From Syntrophobacterales bacterium (GTDB lineage Bacteria; Desulfobacterota; Syntrophorhabdia; Syntrophorhabdales; Syntrophorhabdaceae), in NCBI GenBank assembly GCA_031274925.1, contig JAISPL010000042.1, forward strand, positions 1-43,728: DNA of 43,728 nucleotides. Reading direction: 5' to 3'. Shown one piece after another: positions 20,847-41,536 of this stretch. Both the position numbers and the translations under genes were made by a program. Numbering within the stretch: position 1 is the stretch's first letter; every line of letters starts with the position of its first letter. Under the pieces are notes generated by a model. That model worked only from the letters and a program-made list of their open reading frames with translations, made no database searches and was not told the DNA's origin.

Positions 20847-22235
20847 TCACTGCGATTTACGGTTTCTGGACGAGGGGATGCGAAGCTCTTCTCTGTACTT
20901 GGCCGCAGTTCTCCGGGCAATCTTTATGTTGTGGGATTTCTTCAGGACGGAGACAATCTCATCATCGGTGAAAGGCTTTGCCTTGTTCTCGTCTTTTATG
21001 ACCTCGGCGATGATATCCATGACGACGTTGGTGGAAAGCTCATTTCCTTCTTCCTTTCCGATACCCGTGGGAAAGAAAAATTTCATCTCATAGATGCCGT
21101 GGGGAGTACTAATATACTTATTTGTAGTGATTCTGCTTACCGTCGACTCGTGCATGCCTATGTCTTGTGCCACGTCTTTGAGAATTAACGGCTTGAGTGC
21201 CTTCAGGCCTTTTTCGAAGAATCCGGTCTGGAAAGAGACTATGCTTTTTGCCACAAGGTAGAGCGTCCGCTGACGCTGCTGGAGGCTTTTGATGAACCAT
21301 TCCGCCTGTTTGACTTTCTGCTTTATGTACTTCCTGTCCTCGCCATTCGTACTTTTATTCGCGTAGAGCTCTATGTAATGGCTGTTCACATGGAGTTCGG
21401 GTATGTCTTCCTCATTTAAGAAAACATCAAATTCACCCTCTTGTTTTGCCACGTAAACGTCGGGTATCATATAAAAGACATGGTCATCCCCGAAGTTTCT
21501 TCCGGGCTTCGGATCATAGTTCTTGATTTTTTCTATGAGCGACTTTACGAGATCCACGGGGAACCCTGTCTTTTTGACAATATCTTTGATATTGCCTTTT
21601 TCGACCAAATCAAAGTAATTGATGAGAAAATTTTCAAGAAGCGGATCTTTTTCTGATTCCATTCTGCACTGAATCAATAGACATTCTCTGAGATTCTGTG
21701 CTCCGACACCTGGTGGATCGAGTTTCTGGATTTTAAGTAGGATTTTCTCCAACCCCTCGACTGAAAATCCAGAGGCGCTTGCTATCTCGGAGATGGGATA
21801 TGCAAGATATCCATTGTCATCTATGTTCTCTAGTATCCATTCAGCAACGATCCGTTCTTCTTGGGTGACATCGGAGAGGCCTATCTGCCACCTCAGGTAA
21901 TCCCTGAGGTTGGATGTCTTGCTTACCATGTTTTCGTAATCAGGATAATTTCTTTCCTCAAAGTTTGCATATTCGGAGGATATCTCTTCGGAAGCCGTAT
22001 ATAGTTCAAGCCACTCGGTCATGTCCTCTTTTTCTTCAATCGGTTCTTCTTCAGTCTGCTCCTGGATTGATTCCTCCGGTTCTTCTTCTTTTATTTCGAG
22101 GACAGGGTTTTCATTTATCTCAAGTTCTATCGCTTCCATTAACTCCAACTGAGATAACTGCAGGAGCTTTATGGCCTGCTGAAGCTGCTGCGTGAGTATA
22201 GGTGAAAGCCTCTGAGTCTGTCTAAGCCCCAACAT
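20847..22235 (-). CDS. rpoN: RNA polymerase sigma-54 factor
   Basis: RpoN directs transcription from -24/-12 promoters activated by NtrC-type enhancer-binding proteins. The 462-aa protein has the glutamine-rich activator-responsive region I (LRQTQRLSPILTQQLQQAIKLL), a very acidic region II (about 50-85), the core-binding domain, a helix-turn-helix (MHESTVSRITTNKYI) and the RpoN box ARRTAAKYRE near residue 440. Length is normal. The start overlaps lptB by 14 bp, the conserved lptB-rpoN junction. No recognisable -24/-12 promoter or activator gene is in the window. Confidence 0.97.
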   Translation of the reverse strand: MLGLRQTQRLSPILTQQLQQAIKLLQLSQLELMEAIELEINENPVLEIKEEEPEESIQEQTEEEPIEEKEDMTEWLELYTASEEISSEYANFEERNYPDYENMVSKTSNLRDYLRWQIGLSDVTQEERIVAEWILENIDDNGYLAYPISEIASASGFSVEGLEKILLKIQKLDPPGVGAQNLRECLLIQCRMESEKDPLLENFLINYFDLVEKGNIKDIVKKTGFPVDLVKSLIEKIKNYDPKPGRNFGDDHVFYMIPDVYVAKQEGEFDVFLNEEDIPELHVNSHYIELYANKSTNGEDRKYIKQKVKQAEWFIKSLQQRQRTLYLVAKSIVSFQTGFFEKGLKALKPLILKDVAQDIGMHESTVSRITTNKYISTPHGIYEMKFFFPTGIGKEEGNELSTNVVMDIIAEVIKDENKAKPFTDDEIVSVLKKSHNIKIARRTAAKYREELRIPSSRNRKSQ

Positions 22236-22965
22236 TAATGTTGAATTCCTCTCCTAAATAGATTTCCCTTACTATTTTGTCTTTTGCTACTCTCTCCGGG
22301 GTTCCTTCGAGAAGCACCTTTCCATTATTCACCACGTAGGCTCTGTCACATATCGGTAAAGAATCTCTTACATTATGATCTGACAGTAATATGCCGATCT
22401 TCTTGCTGCGCAGGCCGTTGATTAATTTCTTCAGGTCTGAAACCGAGATGGGGTCGATTCCCGAGAAGGGCTCGTCGAGTAGCACGAAATGTGGGTTGGT
22501 CATGAGAGCCCGTGCTATCTCCAACCTCCTTCTTTCTCCGCCGGACAATGAGTCGGCATTATTCCTGGCCAGATGGTCCAGTTTGAATGTTTCGAGAAAG
22601 TCCTGCACTTTATGGTCCATCAACTCGCGATCTTCTTCTTGGAACTCAAGTATGGCCTTGAGATTGTCCGCGACGGTCATTTTTTTGAATATCGAAGGCT
22701 CCTGGGGCAAGTAGGTAATTCCTTTCCTGGCCCTCATAAACATGGGCAGGGAGGTGATATCTTCGCCGTCTAGGAGAATCTTTCCGCCATTTGGTTTTAT
22801 GAAGCCTATCACCATGTAGAAAGTTGTTGTTTTCCCCGCGCCGTTCGGCCCGAAAAGACCCACTGTCTCCCCTGTATTTATCTGTAAATCAATGCCGTCC
22901 ACTACTTTCCTTGAACCATAAGTTTTGAACAGACCTTCTGCTGAAAGCGTCGCGACCCCGTTCAT
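22222..22965 (-). CDS. lptB: LPS export ABC transporter ATPase
   Basis: LptB drives lipopolysaccharide extraction from the inner membrane with LptFG. The 247-aa ATPase has Walker A GPNGAGKTT, the Q-loop TYLPQEPSIF, signature LSGGERRRLEIARAL and Walker B FVLLDEPFSGIDP; the SGIDP end is characteristic of LptB. It overlaps the LptC/LptA gene by 4 bp and rpoN by 14 bp. The LptF and LptG permeases are not encoded in this window. Confidence 0.96.
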   Translation of the reverse strand: MNGVATLSAEGLFKTYGSRKVVDGIDLQINTGETVGLFGPNGAGKTTTFYMVIGFIKPNGGKILLDGEDITSLPMFMRARKGITYLPQEPSIFKKMTVADNLKAILEFQEEDRELMDHKVQDFLETFKLDHLARNNADSLSGGERRRLEIARALMTNPHFVLLDEPFSGIDPISVSDLKKLINGLRSKKIGILLSDHNVRDSLPICDRAYVVNNGKVLLEGTPERVAKDKIVREIYLGEEFNINVGA

Positions 22966-23876
22966 CGTCTATCTATCCTCATTTTCGGTTTGTTCACTGA
23001 AAATTTTTCTGCATTCACGTTATAGATTATTGATTCTCCACCCATATCAATTTTATCTTTCGTAACCTGTGGAGCGCCTGTCATCACGACTTTTTCGTCT
23101 TTAAAATGATACACTGCCTTGTCGCTTTTCGCAATAGCGCCCTTTGATGCCAATCGTACATTCCCCACTGCGTCAACCTTTTCCACCTCATCATTTTTGT
23201 TGATGAGATGGAGTTTATCACATACAAGATCCATGTCCTTGCCTTTCATGGTAACCTCGTTTTCCAGGATATAGACGCTATCCTTCACGGAATAGAAGAA
23301 CCTGTCGGAACTGAAGTTGTAACGTCCTTTGGCGCTCTCAATAAAGCCGGCCACATTCTTATGGATTCTTATTGTCTGAGCGTTCGTGTCCGCATACAAT
23401 CCTATCCCTTTCAGATCCAGTTTTGTCCCTTCTATGGCCACTGGGGCTTCTGTACGGGTAAAACCTCTCTTAAAGTCAAAATCCATATACTTCGTTACGA
23501 GCTTATACTCATTTTTATAAAGGATAACCACATCTTCCATAGCCCCGTTTTCCTGATCTGTATCCATTCTCCCTTTTGAGCCGTTGAAGAATACGGTTGT
23601 ATCAGGCTTGGGTTTATATTGCCCTTCTATGACCTCCATTTCGACCACGGGTTTGTCGATATATTTTCGGGCGATTTTCGCCTTGATCTCCCAATCTACA
23701 GTCCCCTTGCTTTCTCCTGAATAATGGACATCCTTGAAGACTATGGCCTTTGCCGCCTCCTCTACCTTGGGTGGAGCCACCCTGTGAGGTTTGTTGAAGA
23801 AGAAGTAAAGGGCAAGCGCCAATCCGGCGAGGATAACCGAGCAGGCAATATATACTGTCAGGTCTCTGTTCTTCAT
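22962..23876 (-). CDS. lptC: LptC-LptA composite LPS export protein
   Basis: LptC and LptA form the periplasmic bridge that carries LPS from LptB2FG to the outer membrane. From ATG 23876 the protein is 304 aa: an N-terminal membrane helix (about 6-27), an LptC-like beta-jellyroll (about 45-170: VHYSGESKGTVDWEIKAK..., RGFTRTEAPVAIEG), and a further OstA/LptA-like jellyroll (about 175-300: VYILENEVTMKG, VEKVDAVGNVRL, KVVMTGAPQVTKD). Separate LptC and LptA are each about 170-190 aa, so both modules appear to be in one chain. A longer frame opens with ATG at 23942. No separate lptA follows; lptB overlaps by 4 bp. Domain limits are by eye. Confidence 0.78.
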   Translation of the reverse strand: MKNRDLTVYIACSVILAGLALALYFFFNKPHRVAPPKVEEAAKAIVFKDVHYSGESKGTVDWEIKAKIARKYIDKPVVEMEVIEGQYKPKPDTTVFFNGSKGRMDTDQENGAMEDVVILYKNEYKLVTKYMDFDFKRGFTRTEAPVAIEGTKLDLKGIGLYADTNAQTIRIHKNVAGFIESAKGRYNFSSDRFFYSVKDSVYILENEVTMKGKDMDLVCDKLHLINKNDEVEKVDAVGNVRLASKGAIAKSDKAVYHFKDEKVVMTGAPQVTKDKIDMGGESIIYNVNAEKFSVNKPKMRIDRR

Positions 23877-23960
23877 AACATTCGAGCAATTTCCGTGATA
23901 CGTACCCATTGCTGTCGGCTTACGGCGAGGTACGTCTGGCATTTTAAGCCATCCGGCGGT

Positions 23961-24925
23961 CTATACTATTTTTACCCTCAGGAGGTCATGGATATGGATG
24001 ATCCCGATGGGTTTTCTCTCCCGGTCTTTTTCGACAACGAAGAGAGATGTGATAGAAAATTCCTCCATCTTTTTCAGTGCATATGCAGCCAGGGCATCCT
24101 CTTTTATCCCTTTTGGTTTGCCGGTCATCACATCATTCGCCTTTTTAGAGAGCAGGTTGTCATATCTCTCGATTGCTCTTCTCAGGTCGCCATCCGTAAT
24201 GACGCCCACGAGATCGCCGTTTCCGTTTACTACGCCGGCAACCCCGAGCCGCTTTGAGGTAATCTCAAGAATCACGTCCTTCATGAGGCTGTCCTGATGT
24301 ACTCTAGGAACAGCTTCCCCAGTATGCATAAGATCTCCCACCTTAAGAAGCAATTTTTTCCCTAATGACCCGCCGGGGTGGAGAGAGGCGAAATCTTCAA
24401 GCTTGAATTCATTCTTTTGCATCAATGCTACTGCGACTGCGTCTCCTAGGGCCAGTGCTGCGGTGGTGCTAGATGTCGGCACAACATTGTACGGGCATGC
24501 CTCGTCAACCTTTACGTTCAGAATTATATTGGCACAGTTCGCGATTGTTGAATTGGCGTTTCCAGTCACCACTATCGTTTCAAGATCCATTCTCTTTATC
24601 CAAGGGAGGATCTTTACCACTTCCTCCGTCTCGCCGCTATTGCTCACGATGAGAAGCACATCTTCCCTCTGGAGCATACCCAGGTCACCGTGGAGGGAAT
24701 CGCCGGGGTGTAAAAAGACCGCGGGCGTACCCACGCTCGAAAGGGTGGAAGCAATTTTTTTGCATATGAGTCCCGATTTTCCCACACCGAGGACCACAAC
24801 TCGGCCTCTACACGCATGGATTGCATCTACGGCTCTGTCGAACGTCTCATCGAGAGCCTCCATTACCTGGAGTATCGCTTTCGCCTCTTTCCTTAAAACT
24901 TCCTTTCCTGTATCCAGAGGAGTGG

Positions 24926-24929
<4 letters not shown>
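23961..24929 (-). CDS. kdsD: D-arabinose 5-phosphate isomerase, KdsD/KpsF family
   Basis: KdsD makes arabinose 5-phosphate from ribulose 5-phosphate, the first step of Kdo synthesis for LPS. The 322-aa protein has an N-terminal SIS domain (about 35-170: LGVGKSGLI, SNSGETEEVV, VPTSSTTAALALGDA) and a C-terminal pair of CBS domains (about 205-322). It overlaps kdsA by 4 bp. Rpe, encoded nearby, shares its ribulose 5-phosphate substrate. The kdsC phosphatase that usually sits between kdsD and lptC is missing here; only about 84 bp separate the two genes. Confidence 0.94.
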
Positions 24930-28559
<3,630 letters not shown>

Positions 28560-32730: not shown

Positions 32731-34077
32731 ATGTTGCACAGCGTCTCTTCCGGTTTAGCCACACTCGAAAAAAAAATTTATCAACTTGTCGTTGCCGAAG
32801 TGGACGGCGATCGTATCAGTGAGCTGTCTTATCAAAGCCATGTCGCCGGTTTGATGGGGAAGGGTGTCTCTGGTTTTGTTTTTTCAGGGGGCACAAAAGC
32901 GAACCTGAAATCCTTCGCGGCGTCTCTCCGCGCTCTCACGGTAACACCTCTTTTCATTGCATGCAAATTGATGGATGGTACCATGGGGCGGATGAGAGGT
33001 TTTACCGAATTTCCATCGCTTATGGCGCTTGCCGCTGCAGTTGACCTCAAAAAACCGGAGAATCTTAATTTGCTTAGATGTGTGCTAAATGCCATGGCCC
33101 GCGAGGCGATGGACTGCGGCATGAATGTGGCAGCCATTCCGGCATCTCTGGCGGCAGACTGCTGCCGCGGTGTGATTTGCAAAGAGGGGTCTTCAGAGGC
33201 CGGCAATCTGGCATGGATTCGGACCGAATCTATCCGTATCTTTGAGGAAGCCGGACTTTTGGTATATGAGAATAGCTGTCTGTCTGATCGTCGTGTCTTC
33301 TGTCGGGCTGTTTTGGGTGGTTGTCAGGAGTTGCCGTGCGATCCCGCTTCTGTGGTTTTTGATGATGTGAAAGAAAGGACGCCTGCCGGATGGTTCGAAA
33401 AAGACGTGAATATCCTGATCGTCTCGGACGATCCTGACGGTGTGGTGAGGGAGCTCGCCTTTGCTGTTACGGAAGGGAGAATCGCCGAAGAATGGATAGA
33501 CAGGGCCCTTGTCAGCATTGGAGCGGCAAAATCGCAGCAGTCCGAGCCCAGCGGGATCAAAGTCGATCAGGTCCTGAACGAGTGTCTGTCGCGGGAAATA
33601 TCCGAGATGGCAGTCACTTTAGTTAAAGGGAAGGGCAGGTTTTTCCCGCTCAGGGAATCTGACAACATTCCCCTTATATATGCTGGCGATGAAGCATACT
33701 TTCAAGCGTCGCCTCTCAGGTCCTATGTGAAGCAGGCGTCTCATGCAGGCAGGCCCCTTCACTCAAAAGAAAGGCCGGCAATGTTCCTGCTTTTTGGGGA
33801 TGCCGCATCCGAAGGACTGTCTGCCGCCGATTCAGGAAATGACGCGATGAAGTCGCTCTCACGTCTTATCCGGGCCACATCTCCCTCCGTGGTTGTTTCC
33901 TTCGGGAGCCCCCATGTACTCAGCCGGTTTAAGGATGCAGATGTCCTTATCGCAGCTTACGATTCCACCGGCTTTGCCCAGGAAGCGGTCTTCAAATGTG
34001 TTATCGGGGAGAGAAGATTCGAAGGACGACTCCCGGTTACGCTCAATATACCTGACAAAAGGGGCCGTCAGAAATGA
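32731..34077 (+). CDS. NagZ-like GH3 protein lacking catalytic motifs
   Basis: A 448-aa protein with the outline of a family 3 beta-N-acetylhexosaminidase but without its active site. The N-terminal part follows the NagZ pattern GVSGFVFSGG...PLFIACK...GRMRGFTEFPSLMALAAAV, yet the substrate-binding DQEGGxVxR is replaced by KLMDGTMGRMR. The KHFPGHG loop and the nucleophile aspartate are not present. DDPDGVVRELAFAVTEGRI and a C-terminal domain (about 290-448: VVVSFGSPHVL, LIAAYDST, GRLPVTL) match GH3 order. No signal peptide is seen, so it is cytoplasmic like NagZ. It overlaps ampG by 4 bp. It may bind muropeptides rather than cleave them, or the family may have changed chemistry. Confidence 0.65.
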   Translation: MLHSVSSGLATLEKKIYQLVVAEVDGDRISELSYQSHVAGLMGKGVSGFVFSGGTKANLKSFAASLRALTVTPLFIACKLMDGTMGRMRGFTEFPSLMALAAAVDLKKPENLNLLRCVLNAMAREAMDCGMNVAAIPASLAADCCRGVICKEGSSEAGNLAWIRTESIRIFEEAGLLVYENSCLSDRRVFCRAVLGGCQELPCDPASVVFDDVKERTPAGWFEKDVNILIVSDDPDGVVRELAFAVTEGRIAEEWIDRALVSIGAAKSQQSEPSGIKVDQVLNECLSREISEMAVTLVKGKGRFFPLRESDNIPLIYAGDEAYFQASPLRSYVKQASHAGRPLHSKERPAMFLLFGDAASEGLSAADSGNDAMKSLSRLIRATSPSVVVSFGSPHVLSRFKDADVLIAAYDSTGFAQEAVFKCVIGERRFEGRLPVTLNIPDKRGRQK

Positions 34078-35327
34078 CGGCATTGAGGATTCCCTCCTTC
34101 CTGAGATTATACTGCAGTCGTAATATGGTGGTCATGGCGCTCCTTGGTTTTTCCTCGGGGCTCCCTCTTTCTCTCTCAAGCGGCACTTTACAGGCTTGGC
34201 TTACCATAGCCGGGGTAGACATCCGGACTATAGGCATCTTTTCCCTTGTGGGTATCCCCTATACGGTAAAATTCATCTGGTCGCCCCTTATGGACCGTTT
34301 CGTCCTGCCGTGGCTCGGAAGACGGCGGGGATGGATAATCTCCGCCCAGGTTGTTCTCATGGCCGGCATCACGTGGATGGCGTTTTCTTCCCCCCAATAC
34401 TCACCTGCCGCCATTGCCGCCCTTGCTCTCCTGGTAGCATTTACCTCCGCATCTCAGGATATTGTGATTGACGCCTACCGGACTGACCTGCTTTCTGAAC
34501 GGGAACGAGGACCGGGGTCGGCCACATTCATAGCGGGATACAGGGTAGCCATGCTCACTGCAGGCGCCATCGCCCTCATCATGTCCGACCGGATAGGGTG
34601 GCGATGCACCTATCTTATTATGGCTGGACTGCTTGTGTTGGGTATGGCGGGGACCTTGGCTGGGCCGGAGCCTGACGGAAAGATAGCGCCTCCACGGAGC
34701 TTCAAGGAGGCTGTGTGGGGGCCTTTGAAAGATTTTTTTTACCGGCCCATGGCCCTAATGATCGTACTCTTCATCATGCTATATAAATTGGGCGATGCCT
34801 ATGCGGGAAGCATGACCACAACCTTTCTCCTGAGGGGCGTGGGGTTTACCGCGACCGAGGTAGGCACTATCAATAAGGTCCTTGGATTTGCCGCCACAAT
34901 TCTGGGGGCCATGTACGGAGGGGCCATGCTGGTACGTATCGGCCTTTTTCGGTCTCTCATGATTTTCGGTATCCTCCAGATGGTCTCTAACCTTTCTTTC
35001 ATGGCTATAGTCTGGACCGGCAAGAGTTACCCCATGTTTATTTTCGCGGTGGCCTTCGAAAATATAGCCGGTGGTATGGGCATGGCCGCTTTCATGGCAT
35101 TTATCATGGCAGTATGCAACAAGCGTTACAGCGCTACCCAGTTTGCCCTTCTTTCGTCCTTTTCCGCTCTGGGAAGAGTCTTTATCTCCCCTTTTTCCGG
35201 ATATGTTGTCAATTACCTCGGATGGGCCCCCTTCTTTTTTATTACCACCGTGACTGCCCTTCCTGGCCTGCTTGTGCTCTGGCGGCTGAAAGGTGAGGTT
35301 GGCCGTCTGGGAAAGGAACAATGGTAG
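34074..35327 (+). CDS. ampG: Muropeptide permease AmpG
   Basis: AmpG imports GlcNAc-anhydroMurNAc peptides from the periplasm for reuse. The 417-aa MFS transporter has about twelve membrane helices. Near the N-terminus it shows the AmpG patterns LLGFSSGLPLSLSSGTLQAWL and LVGIPYTVKFIWSPLMDR, then SQDIVIDAYRTDLL and, in the second half, LYKLGDAYAGSM. Length is normal for the shorter AmpG form. The start overlaps the GH3-like gene by 4 bp (ATGA). AmgK and MurU, converging from the right, would handle the imported MurNAc. Confidence 0.9.
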   Translation: MTALRIPSFLRLYCSRNMVVMALLGFSSGLPLSLSSGTLQAWLTIAGVDIRTIGIFSLVGIPYTVKFIWSPLMDRFVLPWLGRRRGWIISAQVVLMAGITWMAFSSPQYSPAAIAALALLVAFTSASQDIVIDAYRTDLLSERERGPGSATFIAGYRVAMLTAGAIALIMSDRIGWRCTYLIMAGLLVLGMAGTLAGPEPDGKIAPPRSFKEAVWGPLKDFFYRPMALMIVLFIMLYKLGDAYAGSMTTTFLLRGVGFTATEVGTINKVLGFAATILGAMYGGAMLVRIGLFRSLMIFGILQMVSNLSFMAIVWTGKSYPMFIFAVAFENIAGGMGMAAFMAFIMAVCNKRYSATQFALLSSFSALGRVFISPFSGYVVNYLGWAPFFFITTVTALPGLLVLWRLKGEVGRLGKEQW

Positions 35328-39824: not shown

Positions 39825-40270
39825 ACTTGGTATATATTTAGCGGGAGATAATTAGGGTATAAGCGATTTATTATTGCATTATATTTCCCCCCCCTTGGAA
39901 TTTCTGGATGTCCGCAGGGTTTTTCTGTATACCTTTGGAGAAGAATTGTAGCTGTCATACGATTGGATGCCATACTCAAAGAATGTACACGGGGCCAGAT
40001 GTTTTAAGGGACAAATCCACACCTAAGGACAGGTTGGACACCCACATGGGAGCCAGCGTTACACCTGCTCCAACCGCCTGAGATGGCGGCCAAGACCTCG
40101 AAGTTGCAACCAGCTAGGAAGAGTTGCCCGCGCTCTATCACTCCTGTTGAGCGAAGCGCCTTGATCATGTCCTTGCTGGCGATGAGGTTAGCGCACCCTA
40201 GGTGACCAAAGCCACGCTTGCGTGCTAAAGAAAAGGCATAAGGAACGGCATTCATGACGCGGCGTATTTT
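39825..40270. other. Spacer between convergent Nudix gene and lpxC fusion
   Basis: 446 bp. A run of eight or nine C lies near 39887-39895. A minus-strand frame at 40004-40255 (83 codons, beginning MNAVPYAFSLARKRGFG) has no recognised family or good ribosome-binding site and may be a decayed gene. No terminator with a T-run is evident. Confidence 0.4.
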
Positions 40271-41536
40271 CTATTTTTGTTCTTGATAAAACAGTTTCTT
40301 AAGCTCTCTCATCAGGGCGATATTCTCCAGGTGCCCGGTCTGTTTTGCCGATATTTTCCCGATTATCGGACGGTTGAGGAGGTATGTGTCGCCAATGACA
40401 TCCAGTATCTTATGTCTTACAAATTCATCCTCGAACCTTAACTTCGTATTCACCACTCCATCGTCGCTTAAGATTATCACATTCGCCATAACGTTGTCGA
40501 TTCTGCCCCCCTGGCCTATTTTAGCCAGGCGTCCGAAATCCTTTATAAAACCGAACGTTCGTGCAGGAGCGATATCCCTCACAAAATCGGCCGTGTCTCC
40601 TGTGAAATGGTACCTTTGTGTCCCGATGGGTTTCCCCTGTTCCAAGGTATAATCGATTTCGAATACATCGGACGGTTCAATGGACAGATATTGGGAATTA
40701 CTCAGATTCGGTAGCACGATTTTTTCACGTATGGCGACAGGGTCCAGTCCTTCCCGCTGCTCCAAAACGCCCGCCTCCTCTATCTTCTTGCATATCTCAA
40801 TGGCGGATCCGTCAAAAATAGGAATCTCTTCGCTCACCTTTACGAGGAGGTTGGTAATCCCGTACATGTGGAGCGTGGCAAGGAGGTGCTCAATTGTCTT
40901 TATAATGCAAGTTTTTCCTTTGACCGATGAGGAGAATCCCACGGAATAGACATAGTCAATATATCCGTGTATGCGCTCGCCGTCGGGTATGTGCTCAAAG
41001 ACTATGCCTGAATTCTCGGGCATGGGAAGGAGTATCATGCCTGTCTTTACGCCTGAGAAGAGGCCTGTGCCATATACGACGATGCTCTTTCCGATTGTTT
41101 TCTGGGCACGTATATTCTGGCCTTTCGATATCTTGAGCCCCACATCGTTCGACGGACTTTCCGGTTTGTACTCTCCTGCCAGACTCCGCAGGATCACTTC
41201 AAGGACCTTGTCAATGGAGAGAGGTTTTTCGAGGAAGTCATAAGCGCCAAGCTTTACCGCCTCGACTGCGGTAGATATTGTGCCGTGCCCGGACATGACG
41301 ATTACTTTGGCGTCTTTGTCCTTCTCTCTTATCAGTTTCAGCGCCTCAAGGCCGTCCATCCCGGGCATCCAGATGTCGAGGAATATGACTTCTGGTTTTT
41401 CCTTTTCGAACACGGAAAGCCCTTCTGTGCCGTCGACGGCCTTCAATACCTGAAAACCTTCATCAGACAGGATGGAAGAGAGGCTTTCGCGTACATTTTT
41501 TTCATCGTCAATGATCAGGACCTTAGGCATGGCCAT
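40271..41536 (-). CDS. lpxC: Response-regulator receiver fused to LpxC deacetylase
   Basis: One 421-aa chain. Residues 1-122 are an NtrC-like receiver: acidic pair D10/D11, phospho-acceptor D54 in FLDIWMPGMDG, S82 in MSGHG and K104 in LEKP. After a linker (about 123-146), residues 147-415 are a full LpxC, the zinc deacetylase of UDP-3-O-acyl-GlcNAc and first committed step of lipid A synthesis. Its catalytic residues are present: E216-H217 (IEHLLA), H375 and D379 (VRHKILDVIGD), and H402 (QTGHLENI), matching E78/H79, H238/D242 and H265 of E. coli. ATG 41536 or 41530 both fit. No histidine kinase is nearby. Regulation of LpxC by phosphorylation is my inference. Confidence 0.95.
   Translation of the reverse strand: MAMPKVLIIDDEKNVRESLSSILSDEGFQVLKAVDGTEGLSVFEKEKPEVIFLDIWMPGMDGLEALKLIREKDKDAKVIVMSGHGTISTAVEAVKLGAYDFLEKPLSIDKVLEVILRSLAGEYKPESPSNDVGLKISKGQNIRAQKTIGKSIVVYGTGLFSGVKTGMILLPMPENSGIVFEHIPDGERIHGYIDYVYSVGFSSSVKGKTCIIKTIEHLLATLHMYGITNLLVKVSEEIPIFDGSAIEICKKIEEAGVLEQREGLDPVAIREKIVLPNLSNSQYLSIEPSDVFEIDYTLEQGKPIGTQRYHFTGDTADFVRDIAPARTFGFIKDFGRLAKIGQGGRIDNVMANVIILSDDGVVNTKLRFEDEFVRHKILDVIGDTYLLNRPIIGKISAKQTGHLENIALMRELKKLFYQEQK

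Follow-up and report, generated by a model that had tools for sequence, protein, structure and literature searches.

A deacetylase LpxC fused to a receiver domain of NtrX ancestry, and its probable control by an NtrY-like membrane kinase

Lipid A synthesis is controlled at LpxC, which is also an antibiotic target; to our knowledge, the control of LpxC outside a few model Proteobacteria is largely unknown. Response regulators that have an enzyme as output are known, such as CheB, PleD-like GGDEF proteins and HD-GYP proteins. The modes of LpxC control covered by a 2025 review (FtsH/LapB/YejM, MurA binding, Ght and transcription) all depend on separate proteins, and the words 'receiver', 'fused' and 'fusion' are absent from that review (PMC12444477). 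In R. sphaeroides and C. crescentus, NtrYX represses lpxC transcription and affects LPS (PMC7240162, PMC12444477). For DVU2934, a two-component regulator of Desulfovibrio vulgaris, the only mapped target is lpxC, and in S. fumaroxidans lpxC adjoins an operon orthologous to that of DVU2934 (PMC3333781). An LpxC-FabZ fusion occurs in Chlorobium/Bacteroidetes (PMC516016; NF009667).

The gene described here lies on a Syntrophobacterales contig of 43,728 nucleotides (the whole stretch analysed, hereafter the window). It occupies 40271..41536 on the minus strand, to which all feature coordinates in this and the next paragraph refer, and is a single uninterrupted frame of 421 codons with an ATG start and its stop at 40271. 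The product consists of a receiver (residues 6-115; 41192..41521; Pfam PF00072 Response_reg, E 8.6e-32), a linker (residues 119-143; 41108..41182) and a complete LpxC deacetylase domain (residues 145-413; 40298..41104; Pfam PF03331, E 1.7e-68, full-length profile), and no other Pfam domain was matched in the protein, AAA+ and HTH_8 both being absent. The LpxC domain scored 231.5 bits against a Pfam cut-off of 27, and the protein also exceeded the TIGR00325 lpxC equivalog cut-off (190.2 vs 187.25 bits). An earlier note on this DNA had described one 421-codon frame with a complete receiver and a complete LpxC; Pfam confirmed this, with the gene on the minus strand, and every residue that the note had named was found in its place. 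These are, in the receiver, the acidic pair D10/D11, the phospho-Asp D54 (predicted phosphoryl acceptor; codon 41375..41377), S82 and K104, and in LpxC, E216-H217 (catalytic base and zinc ligand; 40886..40891), H375 and D379 (zinc ligands, within H375-K376-x-x-D379; 40400..40414) and the catalytic histidine H402 (40331..40333).

By alignment, E216, H217, H375, D379 and H402 correspond to E78, H79, H238, D242 and H265 of E. coli LpxC, the E216-H217 pair being aligned with solved LpxC. The closest solved LpxC is the Aquifex aeolicus enzyme, as judged by both alignment and Foldseek, whose top match to the predicted structure was A. aeolicus LpxC 4oze (TM-score 0.93 of target). In the AlphaFold2 model both domains are confident (mean pLDDT 87, pTM 0.85) and the linker is disordered at residues 121-139 (pLDDT <50), a mobile connection between receiver and LpxC. 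One stretch of the LpxC domain departs from the family: at 40481-40546 of the window (LpxC residues about 331-352), IGQGGRIDNVMANV replaces the conserved 'MGLGxGGRxxN', with a 4-residue insertion. AlphaFold confidence falls at residues 341-344, within this departure, and match lengths in four other genomes (G002, G012, G020 and G043) point to an insertion of this kind near the same residues.

The host genome (2.06 Mb, 97% complete) carries one lpxC, which is the fusion gene; a search of this genome found no second copy. The earlier note had raised the possibility of a stand-alone lpxC elsewhere with the fused one inactive; an inactive paralogue beside a genuine lpxC was rejected on single copy number, and the fused copy has intact active-site residues. 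Since it is the sole lpxC of a genome in which LpxB is present, the fused LpxC is likely an active deacetylase. Within the window, 20847-25738 and 32731-35327 hold an LPS block with rpoN, lptB, an lptC/lptA-like gene, kdsD and kdsA, and beyond it an AmpG-like gene adjoins a tentative NagZ-like gene (peptidoglycan recycling), all named from translations. Between a Nudix gene and the fusion lie about 445 bp (39825-40270) in which no gene is clear; Rfam gave no match there, and an 83-codon minus-strand frame (40004-40255) is unexplained.

The fusion is widespread. An LpxC match was found in 56 of 60 relatives; among members of the window's order the matching frames are mostly 415-530 aa, and those that were read begin with a receiver sharing 63-79% identity with that of the window. 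When the whole fusion protein was used as query over 395 genomes of the phylum, the scores were two-peaked: about 91 genomes gave LpxC matches of >220 bits, the frames being mostly 415-500 or 700-770 aa long. Below this fused band the scores drop to 164 bits, at which point frames of about 300-370 aa set in. Among named records, Desulfomonile (L209, L210) and Desulfopila sp. IMCC35006 (L224) have the fusion, and outside the phylum it occurs in Acidobacteriota (L208, L211-L215, L217-L221), Nitrospirota (L207, L223) and Nitrospinota (L216). The survey of lineage spread proposed in the earlier note thus overturned its own supposition that the architecture, if known, would be rare: in this lineage it is common. 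Two fused-type LpxC frames were seen in one single-contig genome (G420; C1:1532771-1533637, 479 aa, and 1662632-1663477, 475 aa). Long frames in L289, L296 and L319 were considered as single-chain kinase-receiver-LpxC proteins, which was not supported, as Pfam shows only a receiver and LpxC; these frames probably merely extend upstream. Nearly complete genomes of family f42 (G117, G149, G177, G203 and others) gave no LpxC match at 1e-25, and may have either a very divergent LpxC or no lipid A synthesis.

Conservation extends to both functional sites. Across 92 aligned fusions, D10, D11, D54 and K104 of the phosphorylation site are invariant and position 82 is S or T; E216, H217, H375, K376, D379 and H402 of LpxC are likewise invariant (92/92). 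Between close relatives dN is low relative to dS in both domains (L020-L023 pair: receiver, 0.011/0.374; LpxC, 0.023/0.370) and the linker evolves faster; by this measure both the receiver and the LpxC domain are under purifying selection. A sequencing join of two separate genes, or a frameshift artefact, had been named in the earlier note as a way in which the fusion could be spurious; this is excluded because the architecture recurs throughout the order, in essentially all relatives, and across families and phyla, with purifying selection on both domains.

The receiver had been called NtrC-like, and here the earlier assignment has to be revised. NtrX is the best NCBIfam receiver match of the window protein (127.5 vs 88.5 bits for NtrC), and in the receiver tree (126 columns, so that inner branching is uncertain) the receivers of the fusions group with those of NtrX proteins adjoining ntrY in a single clade (100/98), to which none of the other own-genome receivers in the tree belongs. 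An NtrC origin was therefore rejected, and on profile scores and phylogeny the fused receiver belongs to the NtrX lineage. In the LpxC tree, a single clade (SH-aLRT 99) unites the fused LpxCs and sets them apart from all stand-alone ones, with two exceptions inside it: L230, whose locus is at the end of a contig, and L306, an AAA-LpxC without a recognised receiver. The latter (genome G144) is a 629-aa frame that follows ntrY by 276 bp, and either is frameshifted or has lost its receiver.

Some relatives encode a longer form, REC-AAA-LpxC (700-770 aa), laid out like a complete NtrX followed by LpxC. All 21 REC-AAA-LpxC proteins lack GAFTGA, the motif that contacts sigma-54, whereas 28 of 29 NtrX proteins adjoining ntrY have it, either intact or altered at one or two positions; HTH_8 was not matched in the REC-AAA-LpxC of L012 and L018, in contrast to the NtrX of L165. 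The loss of GAFTGA in 21 of 21 cases and of HTH_8 in these two indicates that the transcription function decayed and the receiver was kept. Read from these sequences, a transcription factor has turned into a control domain of LpxC. We read REC-AAA-LpxC as the older form, from which AAA was lost more than once, the number of losses not being settled by the tree. In several stand-alone genomes (for example, L165, L169, L323, L333, L340, L244 and L256) lpxC lies just upstream of ntrY, thus the two functions were neighbours before fusing. One NtrX (L271, adjoining ntrY in a stand-alone LpxC genome) reads NSLPGT in place of GAFTGA and perhaps no longer activates sigma-54.

The neighbourhood of ntrY separates the two kinds of genome. 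Where LpxC is stand-alone, ntrX comes next after ntrY in 20 of 21 genomes, and 12 more genomes with ntrY-ntrX appear to lie within the stand-alone score band; among 58 fusion genomes or records, an NtrX adjoining ntrY was found in none, ntrY being directly before the fusion gene in 28 and beside no receiver gene in 30, the window's genome included. As the genomes are mutually related, these figures are given as counts without a P value; the pattern holds over many families. In L057, for example, a 753-aa membrane kinase (HAMP, PAS, HisKA, HATPase and a weak NtrY_N) ends 11 bp before a REC-AAA-LpxC gene. NtrY is also directly upstream of REC-AAA-LpxC in L201 and L206 and of REC-LpxC in L203, L204, L205 and L207 (gaps of -3 to 99 bp), and the same NtrY-like kinase type directly precedes REC-LpxC in many further records, L284 and L288 among them. 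NtrY_N matches of the NtrY-like kinases fall just under the cut-off.

These counts bear on the reading that takes the receiver for a passive relic, or for a module of dimerisation or stability, left when neighbouring genes were joined and with no present role for phosphorylation. The order of lpxC near ntrY-ntrX would ease such a fusion and the disordered linker would suit it, yet the phosphorylation residues were kept in 92 of 92 fusions across phyla while AAA+ decayed and was deleted, and NtrY was kept in fused genomes that have no NtrX beside it; we regard this reading as improbable. The reading that we favour, and hold to be quite likely, is that of an NtrX-derived response regulator whose output is LpxC itself and which is under an NtrY-like kinase. 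The central idea of the earlier note, a kinase tuning LpxC through the receiver with no DNA-binding output, accordingly gains strong support at the level of sequence from the invariant phosphorylation site, the adjoining NtrY, the missing NtrX and the lost GAFTGA.

In the window's order the NtrY-like kinase and the fusion are unlinked, and in the window's genome they lie on separate contigs; the pairing there is thus inferred. The genome encodes one full-length NtrY homologue (C6:160163-162298), which scored 389 bits with the L057 kinase as query, against 116 for the next kinase. No receiver gene was found near it in the 16 kb examined, and in the kinase tree it falls within the NtrY clade (100), apart from seven other kinases of its own genome. 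The orphan NtrY-like kinase of contig C6 is therefore the predicted partner of REC-LpxC, in keeping with the guess of the earlier note that the partner would be an orphan of Ntr-like kind. The search for orphan kinases also brought up the 116-bit kinase, on contig C2, with no receiver beside it. That the cognate kinase is another one, such as this, or that several kinases feed the receiver, draws on the unlinked position of NtrY in the order and on the lone C2 kinase, and appears to us a minor prospect, given the weak match of the C2 kinase to the pre-fusion kinase of L057, the contig end near it, and the NtrY-like gene in 41 of 43 other genomes of the order searched.

Under the favoured reading of LpxC as the output of a kinase-controlled regulator, the course of events could have been as follows. 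An ntrX gene would have joined lpxC to give REC-AAA-HTH-LpxC, the sigma-54-activating AAA+ part would have decayed and later been deleted, and REC-LpxC would have resulted. At present, the C6 kinase would sense the state of the envelope at the inner membrane and phosphorylate or dephosphorylate D54; a change in the shape or pairing of the receiver may then alter the activity, stability or placement of LpxC and so set the flux into lipid A. The membrane sensor would probably control LpxC directly, instead of via the lpxC gene, and the fusion would have swapped slow transcriptional control for direct control of the enzyme. Some receivers act without being phosphorylated, which counts against control based on D54. 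As to the sign, the repression of lpxC transcription by NtrYX in two alphaproteobacteria (PMC12444477) makes us lean slightly towards LpxC being lowered by phosphorylation.

A variant in which catalysis is unchanged, and phosphorylation instead decides whether a protease recognises the protein, or LpxC is brought to the membrane by docking to NtrY, is possible, if the less probable course. E. coli LpxC is controlled by proteolysis, and that of Neisseria, reportedly, by the LapB homologue Ght and by placement at the membrane (PMC12444477). The receiver of RssB steers proteolysis. The chain here, however, ends soon after the helix following H402 and lacks an extended C-terminal degron such as that of E. 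coli LpxC.

No description of REC-LpxC was found in the open-access literature searched, though it may be listed in Pfam or InterPro; nor were LpxC as a regulator output, its NtrX origin or the surviving intermediate found there. Since sequence is enough to name sensor, input domain and enzyme, control of LPS from signal to enzyme becomes testable with two purified proteins. The family is, moreover, a clear example of how a transcription factor became the control domain of an enzyme, with the intermediate form preserved.

Compared with known systems, REC-LpxC retains a full LpxC domain with all catalytic residues, nearest among solved relatives to A. aeolicus LpxC. It shares with LpxC-FabZ the status of a lineage-specific LpxC fusion, yet the latter joins two biosynthetic enzymes and has no signalling domain. 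With CheB, PleD-like GGDEF and HD-GYP proteins it shares the order of N-terminal receiver, linker and C-terminal enzyme, but its output is a housekeeping enzyme of envelope biosynthesis, and such an output was not found described. It differs from the reviewed means of LpxC control (PMC12444477) in that the sensor input is built into the protein. DVU2934, which is likened here by target and not by orthology to NtrX, is a case of two-component control of lpxC in the same broad group; it acts on the lpxC promoter, whereas the receiver of REC-LpxC sits on the enzyme. With NtrY/NtrX there are two points in common: the receiver is of NtrX ancestry and the predicted partner kinase is NtrY-like in its membrane part, HAMP, PAS, HisKA and HATPase, and the known effect of NtrYX on lpxC transcription fits the proposed control of REC-LpxC by NtrY. 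NtrX, however, is a DNA-binding regulator of the sigma-54 family, whereas the fusions have lost AAA+ and HTH or carry them in decayed form, and have an enzyme as output.
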